Below, piece after piece: positions 6,835 to 31,943 of a DNA stretch of 35,024 nucleotides (positions within the stretch are counted from its first letter, which is position 1; every line of letters starts with the position of its first letter). Source of the stretch: Actinomycetota bacterium (GTDB lineage Bacteria; Actinomycetota; Actinomycetes; S36-B12); assembly GCA_009699465.1 (NCBI GenBank), contig WLOE01000005.1, positions 1-35,024 of the forward strand, written 5' to 3'. Both the position numbers and the translations under genes were made by a program. Below the pieces are notes generated by a model that saw nothing but the letters and a program-made list of their open reading frames with translations, did no database searches and was not told the origin of the DNA.

Positions 6835-7830
6835 ATGTCATCTTCCACGGTGGGCATTCCGCTTGCTCGTGGCATGGATGATCCGATGCCAGAACTGTGG
6901 CCAATTCGGGCGAATTCTGTACGTCGCACAGTCACATTGCACGGCACTCCTGATCCGAACTGGGCTTCAGGCATTCTCCTGAGCGGGATAGCGCGGGATA
7001 TCGCGATCGGCCCAGGTGGCGAAATCACGTGGGTGCACTCAGCTGGCCTTTCGGCCCGCACGAATGGCGTGGGCAACATCTTGATGATCGAAGTCAGTGA
7101 TGACGCTCATCACCGTTCCCTGACTGAGGAACTCAAAGGTCGCAATATCGGCCCAGGTTTTCGCGGCCATGTGGCCAAGTTGGGAGATGCTTACTCAGAA
7201 AGTTCTCTGATCGGCTGTCTGCTTGATGAACTTTCTGGAATGCGTCACGTGGCCGGATACGGAAGCATTGTCTCTGCCCCCCAAACACCTGGTTTTTTAT
7301 CCAACTCTCCGCAGGTTGGCACCTGCGCTGGATGGCGAGCAGGTGGAGTCGCGGCAACAGCAAGCGGCGAAAGCATTCTGGGTGATTTACCTACAGCTCC
7401 AACGATTCATCAACTCATCAAAAGTGACGACGCTTGGCATTACGAAGAAGAGGTGCCATTTGGCACGATGCAACGCCGCCGCCTCCTAGACATTTATCGC
7501 GGTAACGACGGTGCGATCAACATAGAGATGTGGTTTCGTGATTCACTCCATCGCGCAGTCGATGAAGATGGCGCACTCCACGAATATGTGGTCACCGGCG
7601 AACTTGATAGCAAAGGTGTGCTCGTTGCAGCTCATGCAACCCCGCGCACCTTGCCAATGGGTGATTGCCCCCTTGCGGCCGAGCACGTCACTCTGCTCCT
7701 TGGACGCACCCCCAACCAGCTTGATGAAGGTGTGCGAACTCACCTTCGTGGCGAGCTTGGCTGCACACACTTAAATGATGCAATGAGATTTATCCGCTCC
7801 ACCGATGTGATGCTCACCCAGCTGAACTGA
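6835..7830 (+). CDS. DUF2889 family protein (copy 1 of 3)
   Basis: The protein has 331 residues and unknown function. It resembles the DUF2889 family mainly in its C-terminal half: RRRLLDIYR, FRDS, LHEYVVTGELD, TPRTLPMGDCP and the final GCTHLNDAMR. Two further copies, at 29880-30884 and 30936-31943, share these points and the N-terminal S(V/I)RRT and LLDELSG-type segments, so the homology is seen directly. Invariant Cys and His residues (HEY, CP, GCTH) suggest metal binding or catalysis, but that is inference. No signal peptide or membrane helix is apparent. The ATG has GGAG about 8 bases upstream. It lies 14 bases before an acyl-CoA dehydrogenase gene and appears to lead that operon, which links it to CoA-ester catabolism. 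It is the most divergent of the three copies. Confidence 0.8.
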   Translation: MSSSTVGIPLARGMDDPMPELWPIRANSVRRTVTLHGTPDPNWASGILLSGIARDIAIGPGGEITWVHSAGLSARTNGVGNILMIEVSDDAHHRSLTEELKGRNIGPGFRGHVAKLGDAYSESSLIGCLLDELSGMRHVAGYGSIVSAPQTPGFLSNSPQVGTCAGWRAGGVAATASGESILGDLPTAPTIHQLIKSDDAWHYEEEVPFGTMQRRRLLDIYRGNDGAINIEMWFRDSLHRAVDEDGALHEYVVTGELDSKGVLVAAHATPRTLPMGDCPLAAEHVTLLLGRTPNQLDEGVRTHLRGELGCTHLNDAMRFIRSTDVMLTQLN

Positions 7831-12999: not shown

Positions 13000-13437
13000 T
13001 TGGCTATTGATCTTGACGTCTTGACGATGCGAGTACCACCGCAAGACAACCCAGAATGTGAGTTTTTCTGGCAAAGCGGAGCTGACGGCAAGCTTCGTTT
13101 CAAGCATTGCGGCGACTGTGGTTACTTCTCACATCCGCCAACACCACGTTGCCCAAAGTGCCTGAGTGTGAACATGGAACCCAAAGTGGTTTCAGGTAAA
13201 GGCACGATCTTGACGTTTACCGTCAACGTTCAGCAGTGGGTGCCAGGTCAAGAGCCGTACATCATTGCCATTGCAACGATGGATGAGCAGCCGGATTTGC
13301 GTCTGACCGCACTCTTGGTTGGCGTTCCATTGGATATTGCACCCGCTGATCTCATTGGCACCCGTGTAGAGACTCGTTTCCTTGCACGCGATGACATCTT
13401 CTACCCAACCTTCGTTCCAGAAGGAGCGCCAGCATGA
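13000..13437 (+). CDS. DUF35 (Zn-ribbon plus OB-fold) acyl-CoA-associated protein, pair 1
   Basis: The protein has 145 residues. An N-terminal rubredoxin-like Zn ribbon has Cys37, Cys40, Cys51 and Cys54 (CGDC...CPKC), followed by an OB-fold with the typical GKGTILTFTVNVQQW. In steroid side-chain degradation, DUF35 proteins or domains bind a thiolase-like partner and make it an active retro-aldolase. DUF35 proteins also act as thiolase/HMG-CoA synthase partners in archaea. It starts with TTG, fixed by AGGAG six bases upstream. The stop overlaps the ATG of the thiolase-like gene (ATGA), so both are probably made together and form a complex. Two more DUF35 genes lie at 18133 and 28479. Confidence 0.9.
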   Translation: MAIDLDVLTMRVPPQDNPECEFFWQSGADGKLRFKHCGDCGYFSHPPTPRCPKCLSVNMEPKVVSGKGTILTFTVNVQQWVPGQEPYIIAIATMDEQPDLRLTALLVGVPLDIAPADLIGTRVETRFLARDDIFYPTFVPEGAPA

Positions 13438-16258: not shown

Positions 16259-16921
16259 ATGGCTGATCTGCAATCGGCTGCAACTGTTGTACTTCTTCGT
16301 GATAGCGAAGAGGGCGCAGAATTGCTGCTTCTAAAGCGTCCTCAACACGGCGCCTTTCCTAACGCCTGGGTGTTCCCTGGTGGCCGCGTCGAGGTTGACG
16401 ATGTCGTCAACGATGACGATGAAGAGGTTGACGTTGCTCGTCGCACTGCAGCACGTGAGTCGATGGAAGAGACGGGCTTAGCTATCAACCCAGCTGATCT
16501 TCATCACTATTCAGTGTGGTTGCCACCGATACAGGCAGCAGTGCGTTTTCACACCTGGTTCTTTGTTGGCGTGGTTCCCGAGAATTCCCAGGTAGAGCTT
16601 CCTGAAACCGAATTAGTTGAGCATGTGTGGGTCACTCCTCAAGGGGCGATTGACATGCACCAACGAGGCGAGATCGACCTCATGCCGCCCACGTTTGTGA
16701 CGATTCAGGGCCTTGCTGCCGCATCAAGTGTTCAAGACATCGTTGCTATTGCAGCAGCAGTTGTTGAACCACCGGTGTACACCAGCCATGGTGTAAAAAC
16801 CGACGAGGGCATGATGCTTGTGTGGGATGGCGATAGCGAATACCCAGAGTCTGAAAACACCAATGGCCGGCACCGCCTACAAATGGGGGACCGGCCTTGG
16901 GTGTTCGAGCAAGTGCTTTAG
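16259..16921 (+). CDS. Nudix hydrolase, possibly CoA-diphosphatase (NUDT19-like)
   Basis: The protein has 220 residues. The Nudix box spans about residues 41-74, from FPGGRV to the core RESMEETGL. It holds an insertion of about ten residues, rich in Asp and Glu (DDVVNDDDEEVD), between the leading glycine and the RE core. Inserted Nudix boxes are known in NUDT19-type CoA-diphosphatases, and an upstream LLLLKRPQHGAFPNAWVFPGG is typical of that group. A role in trimming CoA or acyl-CoA pools fits the operon, but an ADP-ribose-type substrate is also possible. It is the last gene of the plus-strand operon. Its stop overlaps the end of the convergent thiolase gene by 4 bases. Confidence 0.86.
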   Translation: MADLQSAATVVLLRDSEEGAELLLLKRPQHGAFPNAWVFPGGRVEVDDVVNDDDEEVDVARRTAARESMEETGLAINPADLHHYSVWLPPIQAAVRFHTWFFVGVVPENSQVELPETELVEHVWVTPQGAIDMHQRGEIDLMPPTFVTIQGLAAASSVQDIVAIAAAVVEPPVYTSHGVKTDEGMMLVWDGDSEYPESENTNGRHRLQMGDRPWVFEQVL

Positions 16922-18114
16922 AGGCTGCTCTTTTCCAAAATATGAACGGTGCACGATGATCCCAAACCGATCACGTGCGCCATACCAACCTTGGCGCCTT
17001 CAATCTGGCGAGGGCCAGCTTCATTGCGTAGGTGAGTAGCGACTTCCCAAATGTTGGCAATACCGGTTGCTGCAATGGGGTGGCCCTTTGATTGCAAACC
17101 GCCAGAGACATTCACTGGGGTCTTGCCATCACGCCAGGTTGCACCCGAATTGAAGAAGTCGATAGCTCCACCAGGCTCACATAGTTGCAAATTGTCGTAG
17201 TGCACCAATTCAGCCGCAGCAAAACAGTCATGAAGTTCCACGAGATTTAAATCCTGCGGGCCAACACCAGCAAGCTCGTATGCTTTGGTTGCGGCATTGC
17301 GAGTAACGGTACTGACATCAGGAAATTCCTGTGCAGCCTCAGTCCATGGATCTGACGCTAATACTGACGCGCTGATTTTCACTGCACGACGTTGTTGTTC
17401 AAGTGACAACGTGCGAAGTTTTGATTCACTGACAAGAATCGCTGCTGCAGCACCGTCGCAGTTCGCTGAACACATTGAACGCGTGTGTGGATAAGCAATC
17501 ATTGGATCATTCATGATCTGCTCAAGGGACATCTTGTTTTGGTATGCCGCATTTGGATTAAGCGTTGAATGTGAATGGCTTTTCTCAGAAATGCGAGCAA
17601 AAAGTTCAAAGTTTGCTCGTGGATCACTGTTGTTATAGGCCATGCCAATCTGCGCAAACAAACCAGCCATACCGCTGGTACCGATGTAGCCATCAAGATT
17701 CTTGATGGCACCGTTACGACCCTGTGGTGTCCAGGTTTCTGGCCCGGAGCCAACATCGTTACCGGTGAGCAAGCCAGCGCCATAGAGTTTTTCAACACCA
17801 ACGGCGATGCCCATGTCAGATTCGCCAGACTTAATCGACATCATCACAGCACGCATCGCAGTCGATCCCGTTGCGCAAGCGTTTGAGACGTTGTACGAAG
17901 GAATACCGGTTTGGCCGATCTGCTTCTGCAAACTTTGACCACTGGTTTGACCACGTAGGTTGCCGTAACCCATAACCTGCATGTCACGCATGGTTACACC
18001 AGCATCTTTTAATGCTGCCAAGGCTGCTTCAGCGGCGAGGTCGAGCACATCTTTGTCGGCACGCTTACCGAACGGTGTCATGTGGATTCCGAGAATCCAA
18101 ACGTTTTCAGTCAT
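16918..18114 (-). CDS. Thiolase family protein, SCP-x type, with nucleophilic Cys (DUF35 pair 2)
   Basis: The protein has 398 residues. Unlike the two other DUF35-linked thiolase homologues in this window, it keeps the catalytic set: Cys80 in SNACATGSTA, the HDCF block, the His of SKGHPIAATG and Cys in GLGSSCTVHIL. It is thus expected to be a real thiolase of the sterol carrier protein x type, cleaving a 3-keto(branched)acyl-CoA. The start has GAGGAAGA upstream. It lies 18 bases after the DUF35 gene at 18133 and ends the minus operon, with its stop overlapping the convergent Nudix gene. The DUF35 protein may be a subunit or a delivery factor. Confidence 0.92.
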   Translation of the reverse strand: MTENVWILGIHMTPFGKRADKDVLDLAAEAALAALKDAGVTMRDMQVMGYGNLRGQTSGQSLQKQIGQTGIPSYNVSNACATGSTAMRAVMMSIKSGESDMGIAVGVEKLYGAGLLTGNDVGSGPETWTPQGRNGAIKNLDGYIGTSGMAGLFAQIGMAYNNSDPRANFELFARISEKSHSHSTLNPNAAYQNKMSLEQIMNDPMIAYPHTRSMCSANCDGAAAAILVSESKLRTLSLEQQRRAVKISASVLASDPWTEAAQEFPDVSTVTRNAATKAYELAGVGPQDLNLVELHDCFAAAELVHYDNLQLCEPGGAIDFFNSGATWRDGKTPVNVSGGLQSKGHPIAATGIANIWEVATHLRNEAGPRQIEGAKVGMAHVIGLGSSCTVHILEKSSL

Positions 18115-18132: not shown

Positions 18133-18519
18133 TTAAACCGGCTCAAAGCCGAAGCCGATGGCTTCGACGCCTTCAGCGTCGTTGCCCAGTGAATAGGTCT
18201 TGAGCTGCACTTCCATGCCGCGCGTGATGATTTCAGGATCCGGATCAACACCGATGATGTTCCCCATGACGGTCATGCCCCCACAATCGATCACTGCAGC
18301 GCAGTATGGAACGGGAACACCCTTGGCATCGTGATGCACGATGGTGAAGGTCTTTAACACACCAGTAGTTGGGACATCGACTTCAGTGAAATCCAAGGCG
18401 AAGCAATTTGGACACGCGTTATGGCGACCAAACACTTTTGCTTTGCAGGCGGTGCACTGTTGCGCAACCAAATGGGGCTGCGGATCAAGCGCTAGGTAGT
18501 TAACGATCGGAATCGGCAA
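18133..18519 (-). CDS. DUF35 (Zn-ribbon plus OB-fold) protein, pair 2
   Basis: The protein has 128 residues. Its Zn ribbon uses Cys22, Cys25, Cys36 and Cys39 (CTAC...CPNC), followed by an OB-fold with VPTTGVLKTFTIVHH. It begins with TTG behind an unusually strong GAGGAGG. This TTG start is shared with the DUF35 gene at 13000. The partner thiolase follows 18 bases downstream. The function is inferred from the family: binding and handing over acyl-CoA to, or stabilising, the thiolase. The gap of 79 bases to the upstream LLM gene may hold a weak terminator or internal promoter. Confidence 0.88.
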   Translation of the reverse strand: MPIPIVNYLALDPQPHLVAQQCTACKAKVFGRHNACPNCFALDFTEVDVPTTGVLKTFTIVHHDAKGVPVPYCAAVIDCGGMTVMGNIIGVDPDPEIITRGMEVQLKTYSLGNDAEGVEAIGFGFEPV

Positions 18520-20959: not shown

Positions 20960-23095
20960 TCAACGAATCAGTGGATCTCGTGGCATTCCAAGGATGCGCT
21001 CAGCGATGACGTTACGACTAATTTCTGAGGTACCGCCTGCAATCGTCAAGCAACGATTAAAGACGTATTGGTAGGTGATTTCTGGGTTTTCACCATCGAC
21101 ACCGCCATCTTCAAGGAGCTTCATGGCAACTTCGGTTGTTGATTGTGCAAGTTCGGAAACCAGCACCTTCGTAATGTTGCCTTCAGCTCCTGGGCCTGAA
21201 CCCATCACTGCGCGAGTTGCGGCGCGAAGGTTCATCAAACGAATGACCTGCTCGAGGGCAACCTGCTTACCAACTTCACGATCATGACCAAGGTCAGCCT
21301 TGACTCCGCCAGGAAGAAGAGCGATGAGGTCGTACGCATCAATACCGTTACGAGCTTGGCCACCAATCGTGACGCGCTCATTGCCAAGAGTTGCGCGAGC
21401 AACTGCCCAACCATTGTTGATTTCGCCGACGACATCCGCATCAGGTACGAACACATCATCGAAGAAGACTTCGTTGAACATGGTGTCGCCACTATTTTCG
21501 CGCAGTGGGCGGATGGTCACTCCAGGAGCGTCCATCTTGATCACCATCGCGGTGACACCCTTGTGCTTGGGTGCATCTGGATCAGTGCGCACAGTTGCAA
21601 GACCGAACTGGCAATGCTGAGCGCCTGATGTCCAAACCTTTTGGCCGTCCACCTTCCAGCCACCTTCAACTTTGATGGCTTTGGTTGACACTGCGGCAGC
21701 ATCTGAGCCAGCGCCAGGTTCAGAGAACAACTGGCACCAGATGGTTTCGCCAAGCATTGCCGGACGCAACCAACGCTGCACCTGATCCTCGGTAGCCAAC
21801 TGCGAAAGAGTCAAACCAACCCAACCGGTGATACCAAGGTTTGGCACGTCAATACCGGCGAACTCTTCTTCGATAACGATTTGCTCAACGGCTGTTGCCT
21901 CACGACCCCAAGGCTTGCCCCAGTGTGGAACCAGGTAGCCAGACTCGAACAGTACGCGACGCTTATCGGCAGGAGCTGCAGCGTGGTACGCAGCAACTGC
22001 AGCCTTTGCTTCTGCGCGGAAGCTTTCAGCTTCTTCAGGAAGATCAAAGGCATACACGCGGTGATTGCCATTCGCGCTTAGTGCAGTCAGATCTGCCGCA
22101 GCATCATCGGAAGTTCCGAAAATCACTGCAGTTGCGGCTGCACGCTTGAAGTAAAGGTGTGCATCATGCACCCAGGTGAAACCGATTCCACCGTGAATTT
22201 GAATGTTCTTTCGCGCATTGAATTCAAATGCTGGCAAAGCCAAAGCTGCTGCAGCAGCTGCCGCAACCGGGCCAGATTTTGGATCAAGAACTGTGCGAGC
22301 GGCGTCCCAAGCAGCAGCGGTTGCCATTTCAGTTTGGATCAACATGTTTGCGCAGTGATGCTTGATTGCCTGGAAGGTTGAGATGGTTCGACCAAACTGT
22401 TCACGGATCTTTGTGTATTCCGTTGCCATTTCGGTTGTGATGCGAGCGCCGCCAGCAGCTTCAGCTGCAGCAAGTACGCGACCAATGCGGTGTGCAAGCT
22501 CGCCACCACCAACGATGATTTCTGCAGGAGCATCCTTAAGTTCAACTTTTGCATTGCGACGTGATTCGTCGATCGTCTTATTCGGGGTGATCGTTGCGCT
22601 TGATGCAGGAACGATCACGAGGTCATTGCCAACCACGAAAGCGAGATGAGTCGCAAGTTCAGCCGACGTAACAGCATTTGCTGTTCCGCTCGCCTTGCCG
22701 CCAGAAACTGTGATGGTGTTTCGAAGACTGAAACCTGAGGTTGAGTCGCCCTCAGCAAAACCTGGAAGCAGTGCTTGCTTTTGCGCTTGGGTACCAGCTG
22801 CAGCGATGGTTGCTGAAACAACAACTGTTGGAAGGAACGCACCTGGTGCTACGACTCGACCAAGTTCTTCAACAACGATTGCGGTTTCTTCAAGGCCAAA
22901 ACCTTGGCCGCCAAATTCTTCAGGCAGGTGAAGACCGAACATGCCGTTTTCCTTGAACGGGGCCCAGAACGCTGGAAGTACTTCGTCTTTCGTGTCCAAA
23001 GTTGCGCGTGCTTGATCGATGCCACCGTGATCGGCGAGCAAGGAGCGAGCAACGTCCGCGAGGGAGCGATGTTCTTCGGTGAGAGCCAGGGACAT
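20960..23095 (-). CDS. Fused double acyl-CoA dehydrogenase (FadE34-like)
   Basis: The protein has 711 residues and two complete acyl-CoA dehydrogenase halves. Residues ~1-345 contain HLPEEFGGQGFG, REQFGRTISTFQAIKHHC and IQIHGGIGFTWVHDAHLYFKR (about 297-320). Residues ~375-711 contain FSEPGAGSD (about 453-462), KVWTSGAQH, DPDAPKHKG and GGTSEISRNVIAERILGMPRDP. From memory, mycobacterial FadE34, which acts in cholesterol side-chain oxidation, has the same length and plan; this would need checking. The halves correspond to the two separate genes at 8979 and 7845, in reversed order. AAAGGA before the ATG at 23095 fixes the start, rather than 23110. It would oxidise a bulky or branched acyl-CoA as a fused heterodimer. 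Confidence 0.93.
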   Translation of the reverse strand: MSLALTEEHRSLADVARSLLADHGGIDQARATLDTKDEVLPAFWAPFKENGMFGLHLPEEFGGQGFGLEETAIVVEELGRVVAPGAFLPTVVVSATIAAAGTQAQKQALLPGFAEGDSTSGFSLRNTITVSGGKASGTANAVTSAELATHLAFVVGNDLVIVPASSATITPNKTIDESRRNAKVELKDAPAEIIVGGGELAHRIGRVLAAAEAAGGARITTEMATEYTKIREQFGRTISTFQAIKHHCANMLIQTEMATAAAWDAARTVLDPKSGPVAAAAAAALALPAFEFNARKNIQIHGGIGFTWVHDAHLYFKRAAATAVIFGTSDDAAADLTALSANGNHRVYAFDLPEEAESFRAEAKAAVAAYHAAAPADKRRVLFESGYLVPHWGKPWGREATAVEQIVIEEEFAGIDVPNLGITGWVGLTLSQLATEDQVQRWLRPAMLGETIWCQLFSEPGAGSDAAAVSTKAIKVEGGWKVDGQKVWTSGAQHCQFGLATVRTDPDAPKHKGVTAMVIKMDAPGVTIRPLRENSGDTMFNEVFFDDVFVPDADVVGEINNGWAVARATLGNERVTIGGQARNGIDAYDLIALLPGGVKADLGHDREVGKQVALEQVIRLMNLRAATRAVMGSGPGAEGNITKVLVSELAQSTTEVAMKLLEDGGVDGENPEITYQYVFNRCLTIAGGTSEISRNVIAERILGMPRDPLIR

Positions 23096-23176
23096 GGCAG
23101 TTCCTTTCAAAGTTTTACGACTAAACCAAGCTAAGAATAGCGGAATTATCGAACTCTTTATCCCAAATGGCCTAGA

Positions 23177-27293: not shown

Positions 27294-28448
27294 TTACTCA
27301 GCGGTAAGTAGTGCGCATGCCGCAAAGCCACCTACCGCGTTGCTCACCACGCCGACCTCAGGCTTATTTGGAAGTGCGCGATCACCCGCGGTTCCACGAA
27401 GTTGACGTGTCACTTCAATAAAGAAGTTTGCACCGTGGCGACGGCCAACGTTGCAGGCACCACCGTCGGTGTTCGTAGGCAATGAGCCAGTTGCACTTGT
27501 TGCACCTGAACGAACAAATGCACCACTTTCACCCTCGCCGCAGAAGCCAAGTGCTTCCAGCCACTGCATGGCGATGAAACTGAAACCGTCGTAAAGACCC
27601 GCGGTATCGACATCACTTGGCTTGAGGTCAGTACGCGACCACATGCGCTTGGAAGCCATCCATGGCGATGAGTGCGTCATGTCGCGGACCAAACTGAAGT
27701 CAGCTTCGGCTGTGGTGCCATTCGCCCACGAATCAAAGAAGACGGGCTTTTGTTTCATATCGCGAGCACGTTCTTCAGTAGTGAAGATCAGTGCACTTGA
27801 TGAGTCAACAGGGTAATCACAGTCAAGCAAGTGCAGTGGCTTAGCGATGTAACGAGAGTTTAGGTAATCGTCCATCGTGAGTTCTTCATGAAAGAAAGAC
27901 TCAGTTGGGTTAGCAACGGCAAACTTTCGTTGAGCAATGGCGAATGCGCCGAAATCCTCTTCAGTCGATCCGTACATTGCCATGTGACGCTGCATGTACA
28001 TGCCAGCCCAATGCGACCCAGTGAAAGAGCCGTACGGCATCCCGAATTGCATATTGCCAGGGATTCCTCGCTGTGGTCCGAGCATTGCGGCACCGCCAGC
28101 AGCGCCAGCCTTGTGCACAGTGCGAAGAGTCAGCACTGTTTCAGCTGATCCCGAAGCAATCGCGGCAATCGCATGCATAGCAGCGACGCTGTAAGCAGCA
28201 CCATCAACGTTGCCCGAATAGAACGCAACGTCAGGAATACCGAGCATTGCAGCGGTATGGGTTGATGAAACAAACTGATGAGGGAAACTATGAACGACAA
28301 CACCGTCGATGTCTGTCGGCTTGATACCTGCGTCGTTCATCGCCGCAACACTTGACTGCGCGGTGAGTTTGTCGAGAGTCAGACCGCTGCCGCGACTGAC
28401 ATCTGAGTAGCCAACACCAACGATTGCTACGCGATTTTTCTTAGCCAT
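27294..28448 (-). CDS. Thiolase-like lipid-transfer protein without Cys or His (DUF35 pair 3)
   Basis: This is a thiolase-fold protein of 384 residues. The Cys region reads FYSGNVDGAAYSV, without Cys, and the C-terminal block is NTDGGACNVGR, with Asp where the pair 1 homologue has NTHGG. Thus neither classical thiolase catalytic residue is present. It keeps RRHGANF, TRQLRG and the terminal VSNAVGG. It starts with good GGAG and lies 30 bases after the DUF35 gene, so the two probably form a complex. An aldolase-type activity using tyrosines or other residues, as in Ltp2-like enzymes, is possible, or a purely structural role. It is the last gene of an SDR-DUF35-thiolase-like operon. Confidence 0.87.
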   Translation of the reverse strand: MAKKNRVAIVGVGYSDVSRGSGLTLDKLTAQSSVAAMNDAGIKPTDIDGVVVHSFPHQFVSSTHTAAMLGIPDVAFYSGNVDGAAYSVAAMHAIAAIASGSAETVLTLRTVHKAGAAGGAAMLGPQRGIPGNMQFGMPYGSFTGSHWAGMYMQRHMAMYGSTEEDFGAFAIAQRKFAVANPTESFFHEELTMDDYLNSRYIAKPLHLLDCDYPVDSSSALIFTTEERARDMKQKPVFFDSWANGTTAEADFSLVRDMTHSSPWMASKRMWSRTDLKPSDVDTAGLYDGFSFIAMQWLEALGFCGEGESGAFVRSGATSATGSLPTNTDGGACNVGRRHGANFFIEVTRQLRGTAGDRALPNKPEVGVVSNAVGGFAACALLTAE

Positions 28449-28478: not shown

Positions 28479-28901
28479 TTACTGGGCTGCTGGGCGGAAG
28501 ACGGGAAGCGTGAAACCTTCACCAAGTGGCGAGAAGGTGACTTCAACACGATCGCCAACCTTGACATTGTCGGGATTGGTTTCAACGATGTTTGTGATCA
28601 TCTTTAATCCTGGTTGCTCGTCGAGTTCAACAACTGCGAGCACAAATGGCAGTTTGTCTTCAAACCATGGATGGAAGGCCTGAGTTGGAATGCAGAAGGT
28701 GTACACCGATCCCTTGCCTGACACTGCGGCATAGCCAAGGTCGAAACTCAAGCAGTTTGCGCAGATTGGTTCAGGTGCATGCTGAAAGTGACCGCATGCG
28801 TTGCAGCGCTGAATCACTAACTTGCCTTGATTTGCGCCGTCCCAAAAGGCTGCAGTCAGTTCATTAGGCAGCGGAAGCGGTGGAAGTACCTCAGTGGTCA
28901 T
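28479..28901 (-). CDS. DUF35 (Zn-ribbon plus OB-fold) protein, pair 3
   Basis: The protein has 140 residues. Its Zn ribbon uses Cys33, Cys36, Cys47 and Cys50 (CNAC...CANC), followed by an OB-fold with GKGSVYTFCIPTQAF and LAVVELDEQPGLKM. The latter is close to TMDEQPDLRL in the copy at 13000, so these two copies are closest. A GAAGGA site precedes the ATG. It lies 13 bases after the SDR gene and 30 bases before its thiolase-like partner. The role is inferred: an acyl-CoA-binding partner that activates the thiolase-like protein. Confidence 0.9.
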   Translation of the reverse strand: MTTEVLPPLPLPNELTAAFWDGANQGKLVIQRCNACGHFQHAPEPICANCLSFDLGYAAVSGKGSVYTFCIPTQAFHPWFEDKLPFVLAVVELDEQPGLKMITNIVETNPDNVKVGDRVEVTFSPLGEGFTLPVFRPAAQ

Positions 28902-28914
28902 GTCAATCCTTCTT

Positions 28915-29721
28915 CTATTCGCTGTCTTCGGGCCATAGGGCGTCGTCGGTCAGTCCGCCGAGTCCACGTGGACCACCATCAATGGAAAGTGTTTGGCCGG
29001 TGATCCAGCTGCTCATCTCACTGCAGAAGAACAAAGCGCCATTGGCAATGTCGATCGGATAACCAACGCGTCGCAGGGGTACTTCTGCCCCCATGCTGTC
29101 CGCGTCCATGCCGAAGCGTTCCCATGAGCGTAAGGCTCCTTCAGAGGCAACGCCGCCAACAGCAATAGCGTTTGCCCGAACCCCTTTCGGGCCCCATTCA
29201 GCAGCAATGACTCGGGTGAACATCTGAAGGCCGGCTTTGCCAGCAGAGTACGCAGATCCGCCTTTCACGCCTTGAACGCCAGCAGCCGAAGACATCGAAA
29301 CGATCGATGCATGTTGGGACTTTAACAAATGTGGAAGTGCAGCATGCGCACACAAGTACGCAGAAGTGAGGTTCAGTTCGATCGCGTTACGGAAGCGGTC
29401 CGGTGGGGTGTCTTTCGTGGGAAACATGTAAGCGCCACCAGCATTGTTAATGAGGATGTCCAGTTGACCGAATTCATTGATCGTGCGATCAATCATGTGT
29501 TGGACTTGGTCATCCTCGCGAACGTCGGTCTGCACAGCGATTGCGCGGCGACCAGTTTGAGCAGTGATCTCCTCCGCTGTGGACTGCAAGCGTTCGACTT
29601 TGCGCCCGGAGAGCACGACATCTGCACCATGCTCTGCAAAGAGTCGGGCAGTTGTCGCTCCGATACCGGTGCCACCGCCAGTGATAATTGCAACGCGACC
29701 AGTGAGATCCAGCATCTCCAT
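28915..29721 (-). CDS. Short-chain dehydrogenase/reductase (SDR)
   Basis: The protein has 268 residues. The cofactor motif TGGGTGIG is at residues 14-21, followed by NNAGG near 92-96, the catalytic serine in SMSSAAG, and Tyr158-x-x-x-Lys162 (YSAGK). The C-terminus contains the common SSWITGQTLSIDGG. It is a complete classical SDR, probably acting on a hydroxyacyl-CoA or keto group. It leads the minus operon with the third DUF35/thiolase-like pair, divergent from a DUF2889 gene 158 bases away. An ATG two codons downstream is possible, but its ribosome site would be too close. Confidence 0.91.
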   Translation of the reverse strand: MEMLDLTGRVAIITGGGTGIGATTARLFAEHGADVVLSGRKVERLQSTAEEITAQTGRRAIAVQTDVREDDQVQHMIDRTINEFGQLDILINNAGGAYMFPTKDTPPDRFRNAIELNLTSAYLCAHAALPHLLKSQHASIVSMSSAAGVQGVKGGSAYSAGKAGLQMFTRVIAAEWGPKGVRANAIAVGGVASEGALRSWERFGMDADSMGAEVPLRRVGYPIDIANGALFFCSEMSSWITGQTLSIDGGPRGLGGLTDDALWPEDSE

Positions 29722-29879
29722 GTTTCACTCTTTTCAATTCGGCAGTGGCCTTACGTTAAATCGTTAGGCAACACTTGTCCGGGTTTCGCGGAAATTGCTT
29801 TCCCAAAACGGTCCCGACAAATCGGGCATCGACTAGCCTCGATGTCAATGAGCCTGCCAAGCGCTATCAAGGATTAACC

Positions 29880-30884
29880 GTGCCATATGAACTTCCCGTC
29901 GTTGGACGAGTGCTGACCAATGCGGTCAGTGGCCCAAGTAATCCAAGCCCGCCTCGCCCACCGCATTCGGTTCGCCGAACTTCGACTATTGATATTGATT
30001 TCCCGGATGGATTGACCGCAAGTCGGCGAGTGCGCGGGCGTGCTCGAGATTTTCTCACCAATGGCCAAGAGACCAAAGTGTTAGCGGATGACGTCCTCAT
30101 CGCGACGGTCAATCCAGATCGTTCCTATGAATTTCTCTTTAGCTTTCCGGATCGACCTGCATTGCAGGCTTTGGTTGGTCCTGAAGGCACCCCAAATTCG
30201 CGTCGGGTGATGAATGCCCTGGTACCTGAGGAGCAAGGAGCGGGAAGCCCGCTCTATTTGCTCCTTGATGACATGCCAGGTGCCCTGTTCATATCAGGGC
30301 ATGTATTGGTTGAGTGGATTGCTCCCGAGGAGCGAATGACCGCAATGAGCGGAGACTTTATGGCCCCTGTCGATGTGTGCATGGGGTACGCCGCTGGATC
30401 TAATGCGATCGGTGACGATGGCAAGTGTCTGCTTATTCATCAGGTGCAACCTGCTGGTCCGTTGATGACTGAAGAGGACCCACTTGCATGGCACAAGCTG
30501 CAAGATGAGAGCGATCAACCAGCACTGCGTCGTGCCCGACGCATCGACACATGGCTCGATGGCGATATCCATTTTGATGCGTATTTCCAAGACAGTTCAA
30601 CAACTCCACACCACGGAAGAGTTGCAGTACACGAATACTGCTTAAGCGGTACAGCTGACTTTCATACCGGTGAACTTCTCACACTCAAAGTTGATCCCCG
30701 CGTGCTTCCCTTTGATGCCTGCCCGCAAGCAACGAAGAACGTGCATCGAATGATCGGAATCCCATTGCAGCAATTCCGGCAGGCCGTTGTTGAACAGCTC
30801 CCAGGCACGTTGGGCTGTACACACCTCAATGATGCACTGCGTGCTTTAGCAGAAGTCCCGATCATGGTCACTTCGCTTCAGTAG
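29880..30884 (+). CDS. DUF2889 family protein (copy 2 of 3)
   Basis: The protein has 334 residues and unknown function. It shares with the next gene SVRRTSTID, LYLLLDD, RRID, YFQDS, AVHEY, PRVLPFDACPQAT and GCTHLNDALRALAEVP. The frame is open back to 29775. GTG at 29880 is preferred, because AAGGA lies six bases before it and the protein then has the same length as the other two copies (331 and 335). Cys and His in the CP and GCTH blocks are invariant in all copies. The next copy follows after 51 bases in the same direction, so the pair is a tandem duplication. It is divergent from the SDR/DUF35/thiolase-like operon. Confidence 0.82.
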   Translation: MPYELPVVGRVLTNAVSGPSNPSPPRPPHSVRRTSTIDIDFPDGLTASRRVRGRARDFLTNGQETKVLADDVLIATVNPDRSYEFLFSFPDRPALQALVGPEGTPNSRRVMNALVPEEQGAGSPLYLLLDDMPGALFISGHVLVEWIAPEERMTAMSGDFMAPVDVCMGYAAGSNAIGDDGKCLLIHQVQPAGPLMTEEDPLAWHKLQDESDQPALRRARRIDTWLDGDIHFDAYFQDSSTTPHHGRVAVHEYCLSGTADFHTGELLTLKVDPRVLPFDACPQATKNVHRMIGIPLQQFRQAVVEQLPGTLGCTHLNDALRALAEVPIMVTSLQ

Positions 30885-30935: not shown

Positions 30936-31943
30936 ATGGCTGTTGATGTGCCCGAAGGCATACAACCTGTCGGACCTGCTGTGCCTACCCCTGCTCGTAA
31001 CCTGAGTTCCATCCGCCGCACCTCCACCATTGACGCCACTTGGGATAGCGACGACCGCGATTCGCCGATGCAATTACTTGGACGAAGCCGAGACATCTGT
31101 ACCCCTACGGATGGAACGGCCGCCATTGTTCTTGCTGAAGATGTATTGCAGGTGACCACTCAACCAAACCGAGTGATTTCTGCAATCTCATCGGTACCAC
31201 CAAGAACTGGATTAGAAGTACTGATTGATCTCAAGGGCGGTCTGCGTTCCAAGATAGTTGAGTCTTTCCCGGATGAAGTGCGAGAAGGAACACCGCTGTA
31301 TTTACTCCTTGATGACATTTCAGGTGCAACCCTTGTCTCTGGATTCGCCTTTATGCATTGGCGTAAACCCGAAGATGCACCGCTCGTGAATCCGCTCGAT
31401 CCAGAGATCATGGCGCGCAAGCTCAAAATGGTGGGAATCTGCGCGGGCTTCCAGTCAGGAGCCAGCGCACTTGGCGAGGATGGCCCACCGGCAAAGCACG
31501 CAACACAGATCGTACCTAATTTGCCAATCGGCTCTGACCCTTTTGCGTGGCATGAACTTTTTGAAACAAATGAAGTCTCTGCACGACGGTCGCGGCGAAT
31601 AGATGTGTGGCGTGAAGAAGATGAGTGGATAGTGGATTCCTTCTTCCAGGATTCAGGGACATCACCATCAGGTAATCGGATTGCTGTTCATGAGTACACA
31701 ATTCGTGCGCGAGTAAATGTGATCTCAGGTTTGGTGACTGCAATTCAAGCCACGCCGCAAGTCTTGCCGTTCGTTGAATGCCCAATGGCAACCCTTGCTG
31801 TACATCGACTTCAGGGACAGCCGATTCGTGAATTTCGGACACTCGTCAATGAACTTCTCCCGGGAATCGATGGCTGCACACACATGAACGATGCATTGCG
31901 TGCACTTGCCGAAGTTCCAGTTCTTGCCGCGCACTTGGCTTAG
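30936..31943 (+). CDS. DUF2889 family protein (copy 3 of 3)
   Basis: The protein has 335 residues and unknown function. It aligns with copy 2 from SIRRTSTID to the end, including TPLYLLLDDISGATLVSGF, RRSRRIDVW, FFQDSGTSPSG, AVHEY, LPFVECPMAT and GCTHMNDALRALAEVPV. A purine-rich GGAAGGGAA precedes the ATG. It has no visible signal peptide or membrane segment, so a cytosolic role is likely. It is convergent with a metallophosphoesterase gene, whose end lies 8 bases away. The link with acyl-CoA catabolism rests on context only. Confidence 0.82.
   Translation: MAVDVPEGIQPVGPAVPTPARNLSSIRRTSTIDATWDSDDRDSPMQLLGRSRDICTPTDGTAAIVLAEDVLQVTTQPNRVISAISSVPPRTGLEVLIDLKGGLRSKIVESFPDEVREGTPLYLLLDDISGATLVSGFAFMHWRKPEDAPLVNPLDPEIMARKLKMVGICAGFQSGASALGEDGPPAKHATQIVPNLPIGSDPFAWHELFETNEVSARRSRRIDVWREEDEWIVDSFFQDSGTSPSGNRIAVHEYTIRARVNVISGLVTAIQATPQVLPFVECPMATLAVHRLQGQPIREFRTLVNELLPGIDGCTHMNDALRALAEVPVLAAHLA

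Follow-up and report, generated by a model that had tools for sequence, protein, structure and literature searches.

A DUF35-linked thiolase-fold protein from an Actinomycetota bacterium, proposed as the catalytic subunit of an acyl-CoA retro-aldolase

Gene cluster and genomic surroundings

The window, that is, the whole stretch of 35,024 nucleotides that was analysed (contig WLOE01000005.1, assembly GCA_009699465.1), carries a same-strand cluster of three genes on the minus strand. The first is a gene for an SDR oxidoreductase of 268 aa (28915–29721; PF13561/PF00106), which is followed after 13 bp by a DUF35 gene (28479–28901, minus strand) and, after a further 30 bp, by the gene under study, P0001 (27294–28448, minus strand). 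The DUF35 gene product (140 aa) comprises a zinc ribbon of the form C-x2-C-x10-C-x2-C and an OB fold (PF12172 and PF01796). P0001 encodes a thiolase-fold protein of 384 aa, assigned by translation and PF22691 and proposed here as the catalytic subunit of an acyl-CoA retro-aldolase; its coding frame was placed on the minus strand by ORF translation, the plus strand being riddled with stops.

Two DUF2889 genes are divergent to the cluster, and its opposite flank carries an SRPBCC-type gene, an enoyl-CoA hydratase gene and an Amidohydro_2 gene (all by Pfam). The remaining genes of the window are catabolic in type (CoA-transferases, acyl-CoA dehydrogenases, a CoA ligase, thiolases, ABC and MFS transporters); an aldehyde dehydrogenase gene was not found near P0001 in the window region. 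DUF2889 genes occur three times in the window (6835–7830, 29775–30884 and 30936–31943), and homologues recur near P0001 orthologues in the genus. A gene at 20960–23110 (minus strand) encodes 716 aa with the N- and C-terminal acyl-CoA dehydrogenase domains twice each, apparently a fused pair; a gene of similar length was found near a subfamily locus of Rhodococcus sp. YL-1.

Three DUF35/thiolase-fold pairs are present in the window. A paralogue of P0001 (13434–14624, plus strand), used for comparison, has its own DUF35 at 13000–13437, and a third DUF35-like stretch (18187–18477, minus strand) lies just upstream of an SCP2-type thiolase gene (16918–18114) whose product retains the Cys (SNACATGS) and GHP. 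No second thiolase-fold gene stands beside P0001, and each of the two remaining PF22691 proteins in the window is paired with a DUF35 stretch.

Comparison of P0001 with eight orthologues gave dN values of 0.009–0.30. The dN/dS ratios were 0.011, 0.015, 0.028 and 0.066 in the four pairs with finite dS, the other four being saturated; the value of 0.011 was obtained with the nearest orthologue tested. P0001 is under purifying selection.

Family, fold and active-site positions

The sole Pfam match of P0001 is PF22691 (Thiolase_C_1; 106.9 bits, cut-off 28), and the nearest NCBIfam model is NF005892 ('lipid-transfer protein'; 274 bits, cut-off 469). Nine proteins of the subfamily described below and one row from outside it (L104, YDCF..Y) were all below the NCBIfam cut-offs among the models listed, with E values up to 1e-60. 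The nearest solved protein by sequence is the Ltp2-ChsH2(DUF35) aldolase 6ok1 (E 4e-60). An AF2 model of P0001 was built from an input alignment of 19 rows (mean pLDDT 83.5, pTM 0.87). With this model 6ok1 ranked first by both Foldseek and VIA-align (Z 50.1, rmsd 2.2 over 363 residues, 32% identity); next by VIA-align, and tied, were acetoacetyl-CoA thiolase 6esq (Z 47.4), the Sal aldolase 9myr (47.0) and 4u4e (47.0), and the SCP2-thiolase 6hsj gave Z 42.8. The best 1000 Foldseek chains all had VIA-align Z scores of at least 8. The thiolase fold proposed in the preliminary description is thus confirmed by the Pfam score and by the structure matches; likeness in fold says nothing of function by itself. 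Within the model, pLDDT falls below 50 at residues 117–128, 132–142 and 248–255, and the first two of these segments, between strand 104–111 and helix 144–159, probably correspond to the loop called flexible in CtSal.

For comparison of residues, the 6ok1 chain gives Tyr294 of TcLtp2 directly, and the CtSal offset was fixed by Tyr302 and returned the correct letters at ten further named positions (G89, Q161, N162, Y165, R216, V228, C304, Y305, Q347 and Q352). The roles of TcLtp2 residues are those given in excerpts of PMC12329534. Tyr286, in the YDGF motif (residues 286–289; 27582–27593, minus strand), aligns with the base Tyr294 of TcLtp2 and with Tyr302 of CtSal; of these, Tyr302 is essential for CtSal, and Tyr294 is described as the base of TcLtp2 (PMC12329534). 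In the same motif, Gly288 replaces His296 of TcLtp2 and Cys304 of CtSal. Arg336, the first Arg of RRHG (27441–27443, minus strand), aligns with TcLtp2 Tyr344, CtSal Gln352 and the GHP-His of SCP2-thiolase. Asp211 (27816–27818, minus strand) is specific to the subfamily, the position being usually Cys elsewhere, and aligns with CtSal Val228, the backbone of which is said to bind pantetheine (PMC12329534). Gly83 (28200–28202, minus strand) stands at the position of the thiolase nucleophile Cys and aligns with CtSal Gly89 and with the Cys of SCP2-thiolase. Arg199 aligns with the CoA-binding Arg216 of CtSal, Gly144 lies at its oxyanion-hole Gln161 (TcLtp2 is also without Gln there) and Ala331 at its Gln347.

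With TcLtp2-ChsH2(DUF35) (6ok1), an aldolase acting on the C3 side chain of a 17-hydroxy steroid, P0001 shares the whole-length fold, the base Tyr of YDHF, the Gly at the nucleophile position and a DUF35 gene; it differs in having Gly288 for His296, Arg336 for the acid Tyr344, Asp328 for His336 and Asp211 for Cys. At the level of genes the Ltp2-type partner is present (zf-ChsH2 and OB_ChsH2_C, 28479–28901). In common with the bile-acid C5 side-chain aldolase CtSal-Shy(DUF35) (9myr) are the fold, the Tyr302, Gly89 and Arg216 equivalents; different are the residues at Gln347, Gln352, Gln161 and the essential Cys304 of YDCY, and also the zinc site of the DUF35 protein, which is C4 in place of the C3H1 of Shy. 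The SCP2-thiolase 6hsj and classical thiolases have the same fold, and P0001 retains neither their nucleophile Cys nor HDCF nor GHP. P0001 is a DUF35-linked, Ltp2/Sal-like thiolase-fold protein and not a thiolase.

Thiolase fingerprints have been named as CxS, NEAF, GHP and CxG (PMC3406046). The nucleophilic Cys of CxS and the catalytic His of GHP in classical and SCP2 thiolases are absent from P0001, in which Gly83 and Arg336 take their places, so the earlier statement that the Cys nucleophile is missing holds. Thiolysis is disfavoured because Gly stands at the nucleophile position, as does Gly89 in CtSal, and the suggestion that the chemistry must differ holds as regards thiolysis. Asp82 was considered as a stand-in nucleophile and dropped: the thiolase Cys aligns with Gly83, and residue 82 is variable in the clade (D in 13, G in 4, M and I in one each). 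The Cys of GGAC and the His of RRHG had been put forward for new roles and are not the best candidates, since His338 is also present in TcLtp2 (H346) and Cys332 is confined to the clade, its column holding Leu, Ile, Val or Ser in the 117 non-clade rows. Judged from the alignment, the changes that appear telling are Arg336, Gly288 and Asp211, with Tyr286 retained.

Subfamily, DGGAC clade and neighbouring genes in relatives

Homologues were aligned after removal of hits covering fewer than 300 query residues (first set) or fewer than 280 (136-row set) and of near-duplicates above 96%; 60 added stretches supplied 56 new rows. Three fragments were excluded from the first tree and from the residue counts, and the 133-row tree, which was built without the trait columns, excluded six rows, namely these fragments and three long or distant rows, one of them a G/R row. 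Both trees were quick ones with SH-aLRT support only, and several long branches were flagged.

The residues at positions 288, 336 and 211 are G, R and D in 72 of 136 rows, P0001 included; the commonest alternative set is H, Y and C (28 rows). Arg336, which is part of the definition of this subfamily, occurs in 72/72 of its rows and in 0/64 others, and Asp211 in 72/72 and 1/64; Gly288 and Asp211 are each found once outside the subfamily, in the same row (L108). Tyr286-Asp287 is retained in all 72 rows. TcLtp2-like YDHF..Y and YDCF..Y rows group with the subfamily at an SH-aLRT of 97, a support that does not extend to the exact inner order. The joint change at 288, 336 and 211 is not claimed as independent evidence of coupling, because G/R rows against the rest need only three changes on the tree. 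Proteins of this subfamily cannot be ordinary thiolases, yet those taken from annotated plasmid records bear the names 'thiolase family protein' (L100–L103, L109) and, in the case of L107, 'OB-fold domain-containing protein'. The literature, searched by title and start of abstract with most subscription journals lying outside its scope, yielded neither a subfamily member of measured activity nor an experimental paper on one, and a search by motif string brought up nothing on YDGF thiolase-fold proteins among the matches listed.

P0001 carries the block NTDGGACNVGRRHG (residues 326–339; 27432–27473, minus strand), against NTHGGQLSEGR in the 13434 protein (a subfamily member with YDGF and Arg), just as had been described. 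Rows with NTDGGACN[VM]GRRHG fall on one side of a branch with an SH-aLRT of 99 in both trees (19 distinct rows) and are nested inside the G288/R336/D211 subfamily. Down to 43% identity the block is identical in 19/19 distinct rows, one V/M position aside, so that TDGGAC and RRHG are indeed conserved as a clade. The clade's residues at 328, 331, 332, 333 and 337 never vary among its members and are seldom seen in the remaining subfamily; being fixed together, they count as one event and not as independent evidence.

Asp328 (27465–27467, minus strand) had been singled out as replacing a conserved HGG histidine. This part of the preliminary description fails: many different residues occur at this position, and it is Arg336 that aligns with the GHP His. 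Asp is found there in the 19 clade rows, and the other 53 G288/R336 rows have H (17), S (9), Y (8), N (7), A (5), G (5), E (1) and D (1); in the 64 rows outside the subfamily the residues are H (35), N (11), S (8), D (7), G (2) and A (1). Over the 133 rows the HGG position requires 26 changes on the tree, against nine at 336, nine at 288 and eight at 211, and Asp versus not-Asp requires four; some of the proteins with Asp there still have His at their GHP position. Asp328 aligns with TcLtp2 His336 and CtSal His344, for which no catalytic role is named in the excerpts of PMC12329534; 'HGG' does not appear anywhere in that paper. The variability of the position and the alignment of the GHP His with another residue led to the rejection of Asp328 as a replacement for a catalytic His; an Asp at HGG does not on its own signal new chemistry.

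The clade is present in the genus of the window's genome. In another family of the same class (that of G134) the motif pattern matched 8 of 35 genomes, which belong to two of the family's seven genera. Further members come from two genomes labelled Acidimicrobiia (L047, L048) and two labelled as actinomycetes (L043, L044). Across the phylum the strict motif pattern was found in one of 396 sampled genomes, the window's own, where contig C119 carries another member of the clade. Two further arrangements were observed. At L042 (8001–9382, G001:C78), in a metagenome-assembled genome, the coding sequence of a P0001 orthologue is divided between two frames, by an assembly error or a real break. Another species of the genus has two tandem clade copies at L093 (8317–11888), and a separate DUF35 gene accompanies each.

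In 24 of 28 clade rows (22 found by script, and L042 and L044 on inspection) the gene immediately upstream is a DUF35 gene, several of these 28 rows being the same gene at different lengths (e.g. L080/L088, L056/L085); this is also the case in 21 of 26 other YDGx rows. Beside the clade copies L043, L049, L094 and L097 none was found within the stretch examined; it may be guessed that such copies borrow the partner of another copy. The proteins at these four loci are about 78% identical to P0001. At 28 loci with longer flanks, homologues of Amidohydro_2 (15), SDR (14), acyl-CoA dehydrogenase (13), CoA-transferase (12), enoyl-CoA hydratase (10), DUF2889 (8), CoA ligase (4), aldehyde dehydrogenase (4; L090, L092, L100 and L109) and HIBDH-type proteins (2) were counted. 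These are raw counts from flanks of differing length, and eight of the 28 loci, comprising all eight DUF2889 loci, represent this same region in congeneric species.

Proposed reaction and alternatives

Four features, namely the retained Tyr, the lack of the nucleophile, the adjacent DUF35 gene and the Ltp2-like grouping, point to retro-aldol cleavage of a 3-hydroxyacyl-CoA, and on balance P0001 is probably the catalytic subunit of a DUF35-partnered thiolase-fold retro-aldolase acting on such a substrate. Two further systems resemble the locus. In the ibuprofen degradation plasmid pIBU218, ipfE and ipfD likewise pair a DUF35-type gene with a thiolase-fold gene, and IpfD, identified in the plasmid record by our own reading of the gene order, has the base Tyr and no His at the HGG position (Gly); unlike P0001, it has YDAF and a Tyr at the 344 position. 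The ipfDE step, tied to cleavage of the ibuprofen side chain, is described as a retro-aldolase reaction, and the ipfDE product is also called a thiolase (PMC9195938, excerpts). A paralogue on contig C124 of the window's genome (L003) has YDAF and NTGGGQISGFYLQG and is 38% identical to the presumed IpfD. The atf1-chsH4-chsE6 operon of Mycolicibacterium neoaurum, which serves a retro-aldol step in sterol side-chain degradation, combines a retro-aldolase, a DUF35-only protein (138 aa) and a dehydrogenase-annotated gene, as does the P0001 locus; Atf1 is Sal-like (56% to Sal1), and ChsE6 is annotated as an acyl-CoA dehydrogenase, where the P0001 cluster has an SDR (PMC10398937, excerpts). ChsE6 was tested directly and gave no reaction (PMC10398937).

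We infer the reaction, the complex with the DUF35 protein and the role of each P0001 residue as follows. P0001 would bind the 3-hydroxyacyl-CoA, Tyr286 would take the proton of the 3-hydroxyl group, and the C2–C3 bond would be split to give an aldehyde or ketone and an acyl-CoA enolate. Arg336, at the position of the TcLtp2 acid, would either stabilise the enolate or protonate it, with Asp211 perhaps holding the Arg in place, and Gly288 would leave free the space occupied by His296 or Cys304 in relatives. The residues confined to the clade, D328, A331, C332, N333 and R337, may shape the loop and are not expected to belong to the catalytic core; an ion pair between D328 and R337 is possible, as a guess. 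The carbonyl product could be taken by the neighbouring SDR or, at some other loci, by aldehyde dehydrogenase.

The acid is the weak point of this scheme. It is Tyr344 in TcLtp2 and Cys304 in CtSal, and CtSal with A, S or H at 304 loses detectable activity (PMC12329534). As these variants show no detectable activity and the known acids are absent from P0001, an aldolase here needs a new acid. Arg336 is a candidate and may serve for protonation, for stabilisation of the enolate or for binding of a substrate carboxylate; Arg is a poor acid, which is a point against the aldolase reading, and the link to aldehyde dehydrogenase (4/28 loci) is weak. Gly144 at the place of the CtSal oxyanion-hole Gln161, the four clade rows in which no DUF35 was found within the stretch examined and the negative outcome with ChsE6 also count against it. 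It is conceivable, as a tentative proposal that we hold with less confidence than the retro-aldolase assignment, that throughout the large subfamily Arg at the GHP-His position replaces the aldolase acids, together with Asp211 and Gly288 (a Tyr-Arg(-Asp) aldolase), and that in the DGGAC clade the loop is rebuilt (the D328–R337 pair, Cys332) for a substrate of its own.

An active-site Arg in place of Tyr or His would also suit a carboxylate, so that Arg336 might bind the carboxylate of a substrate in another C–C lyase or CoA enzyme on the same scaffold, such as a malonyl-type CoA decarboxylase or a hydratase/dehydratase. We consider this unlikely. The Amidohydro_2 family includes decarboxylases, and its homologues at 15 of 28 loci, eight of them in the window's own genus, agree with a decarboxylase. 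The thiolase-like TbSLP decarboxylates malonyl-CoA, very slowly, but CtSal does not (PMC12329534, excerpts), and the kept Tyr, the DUF35 gene and the acyl-CoA dehydrogenase, CoA-transferase and enoyl-CoA hydratase neighbours suit 3-hydroxyacyl-CoA cleavage at least equally well.

Loss of catalysis altogether, with P0001 as a regulatory or purely structural thiolase-fold subunit, would be in keeping with the replacement of the three cleanly alignable thiolase fingerprints (CxS, NEAF/HDCF and GHP; the CxG region aligned unclearly) and with the four clade rows that have no adjacent DUF35. It appears quite improbable in view of the invariance of Tyr286, Asp287 and Asp211 throughout the 72 rows that Gly288 and Arg336 define, of dN/dS values of 0.011–0.066 in the four calculable pairs and of the lack of a second thiolase-fold gene adjoining P0001. 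That P0001 works in the aldol, C–C-forming direction in a biosynthesis is less probable still: aldolases are reversible, and DUF35/thiolase-fold complexes also form C–C bonds (PhlABC; paper and PDB titles), but the neighbours in the window, from acyl-CoA dehydrogenases to transporters, are catabolic. A thiolase or acyltransferase with Cys332 or Cys210 as nucleophile can be set aside as highly improbable, since Cys332, invariant in the clade (19/19), gives way to Leu, Ile, Val or Ser elsewhere, Cys210 is widespread beyond the subfamily (33/40 rows) and neither aligns with a known nucleophile.

Thiolase-fold aldolases without a Cys nucleophile are already known (Ltp2, Sal); of the Arg variant we found no tested example. 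If the Tyr-Arg arrangement holds true, thiolase-fold aldolases would have a third catalytic set beside the Tyr/Tyr (TcLtp2) and Tyr/Cys (CtSal) sets, and the arrangement would provide a testable C–C cleavage step for actinobacterial catabolic clusters.
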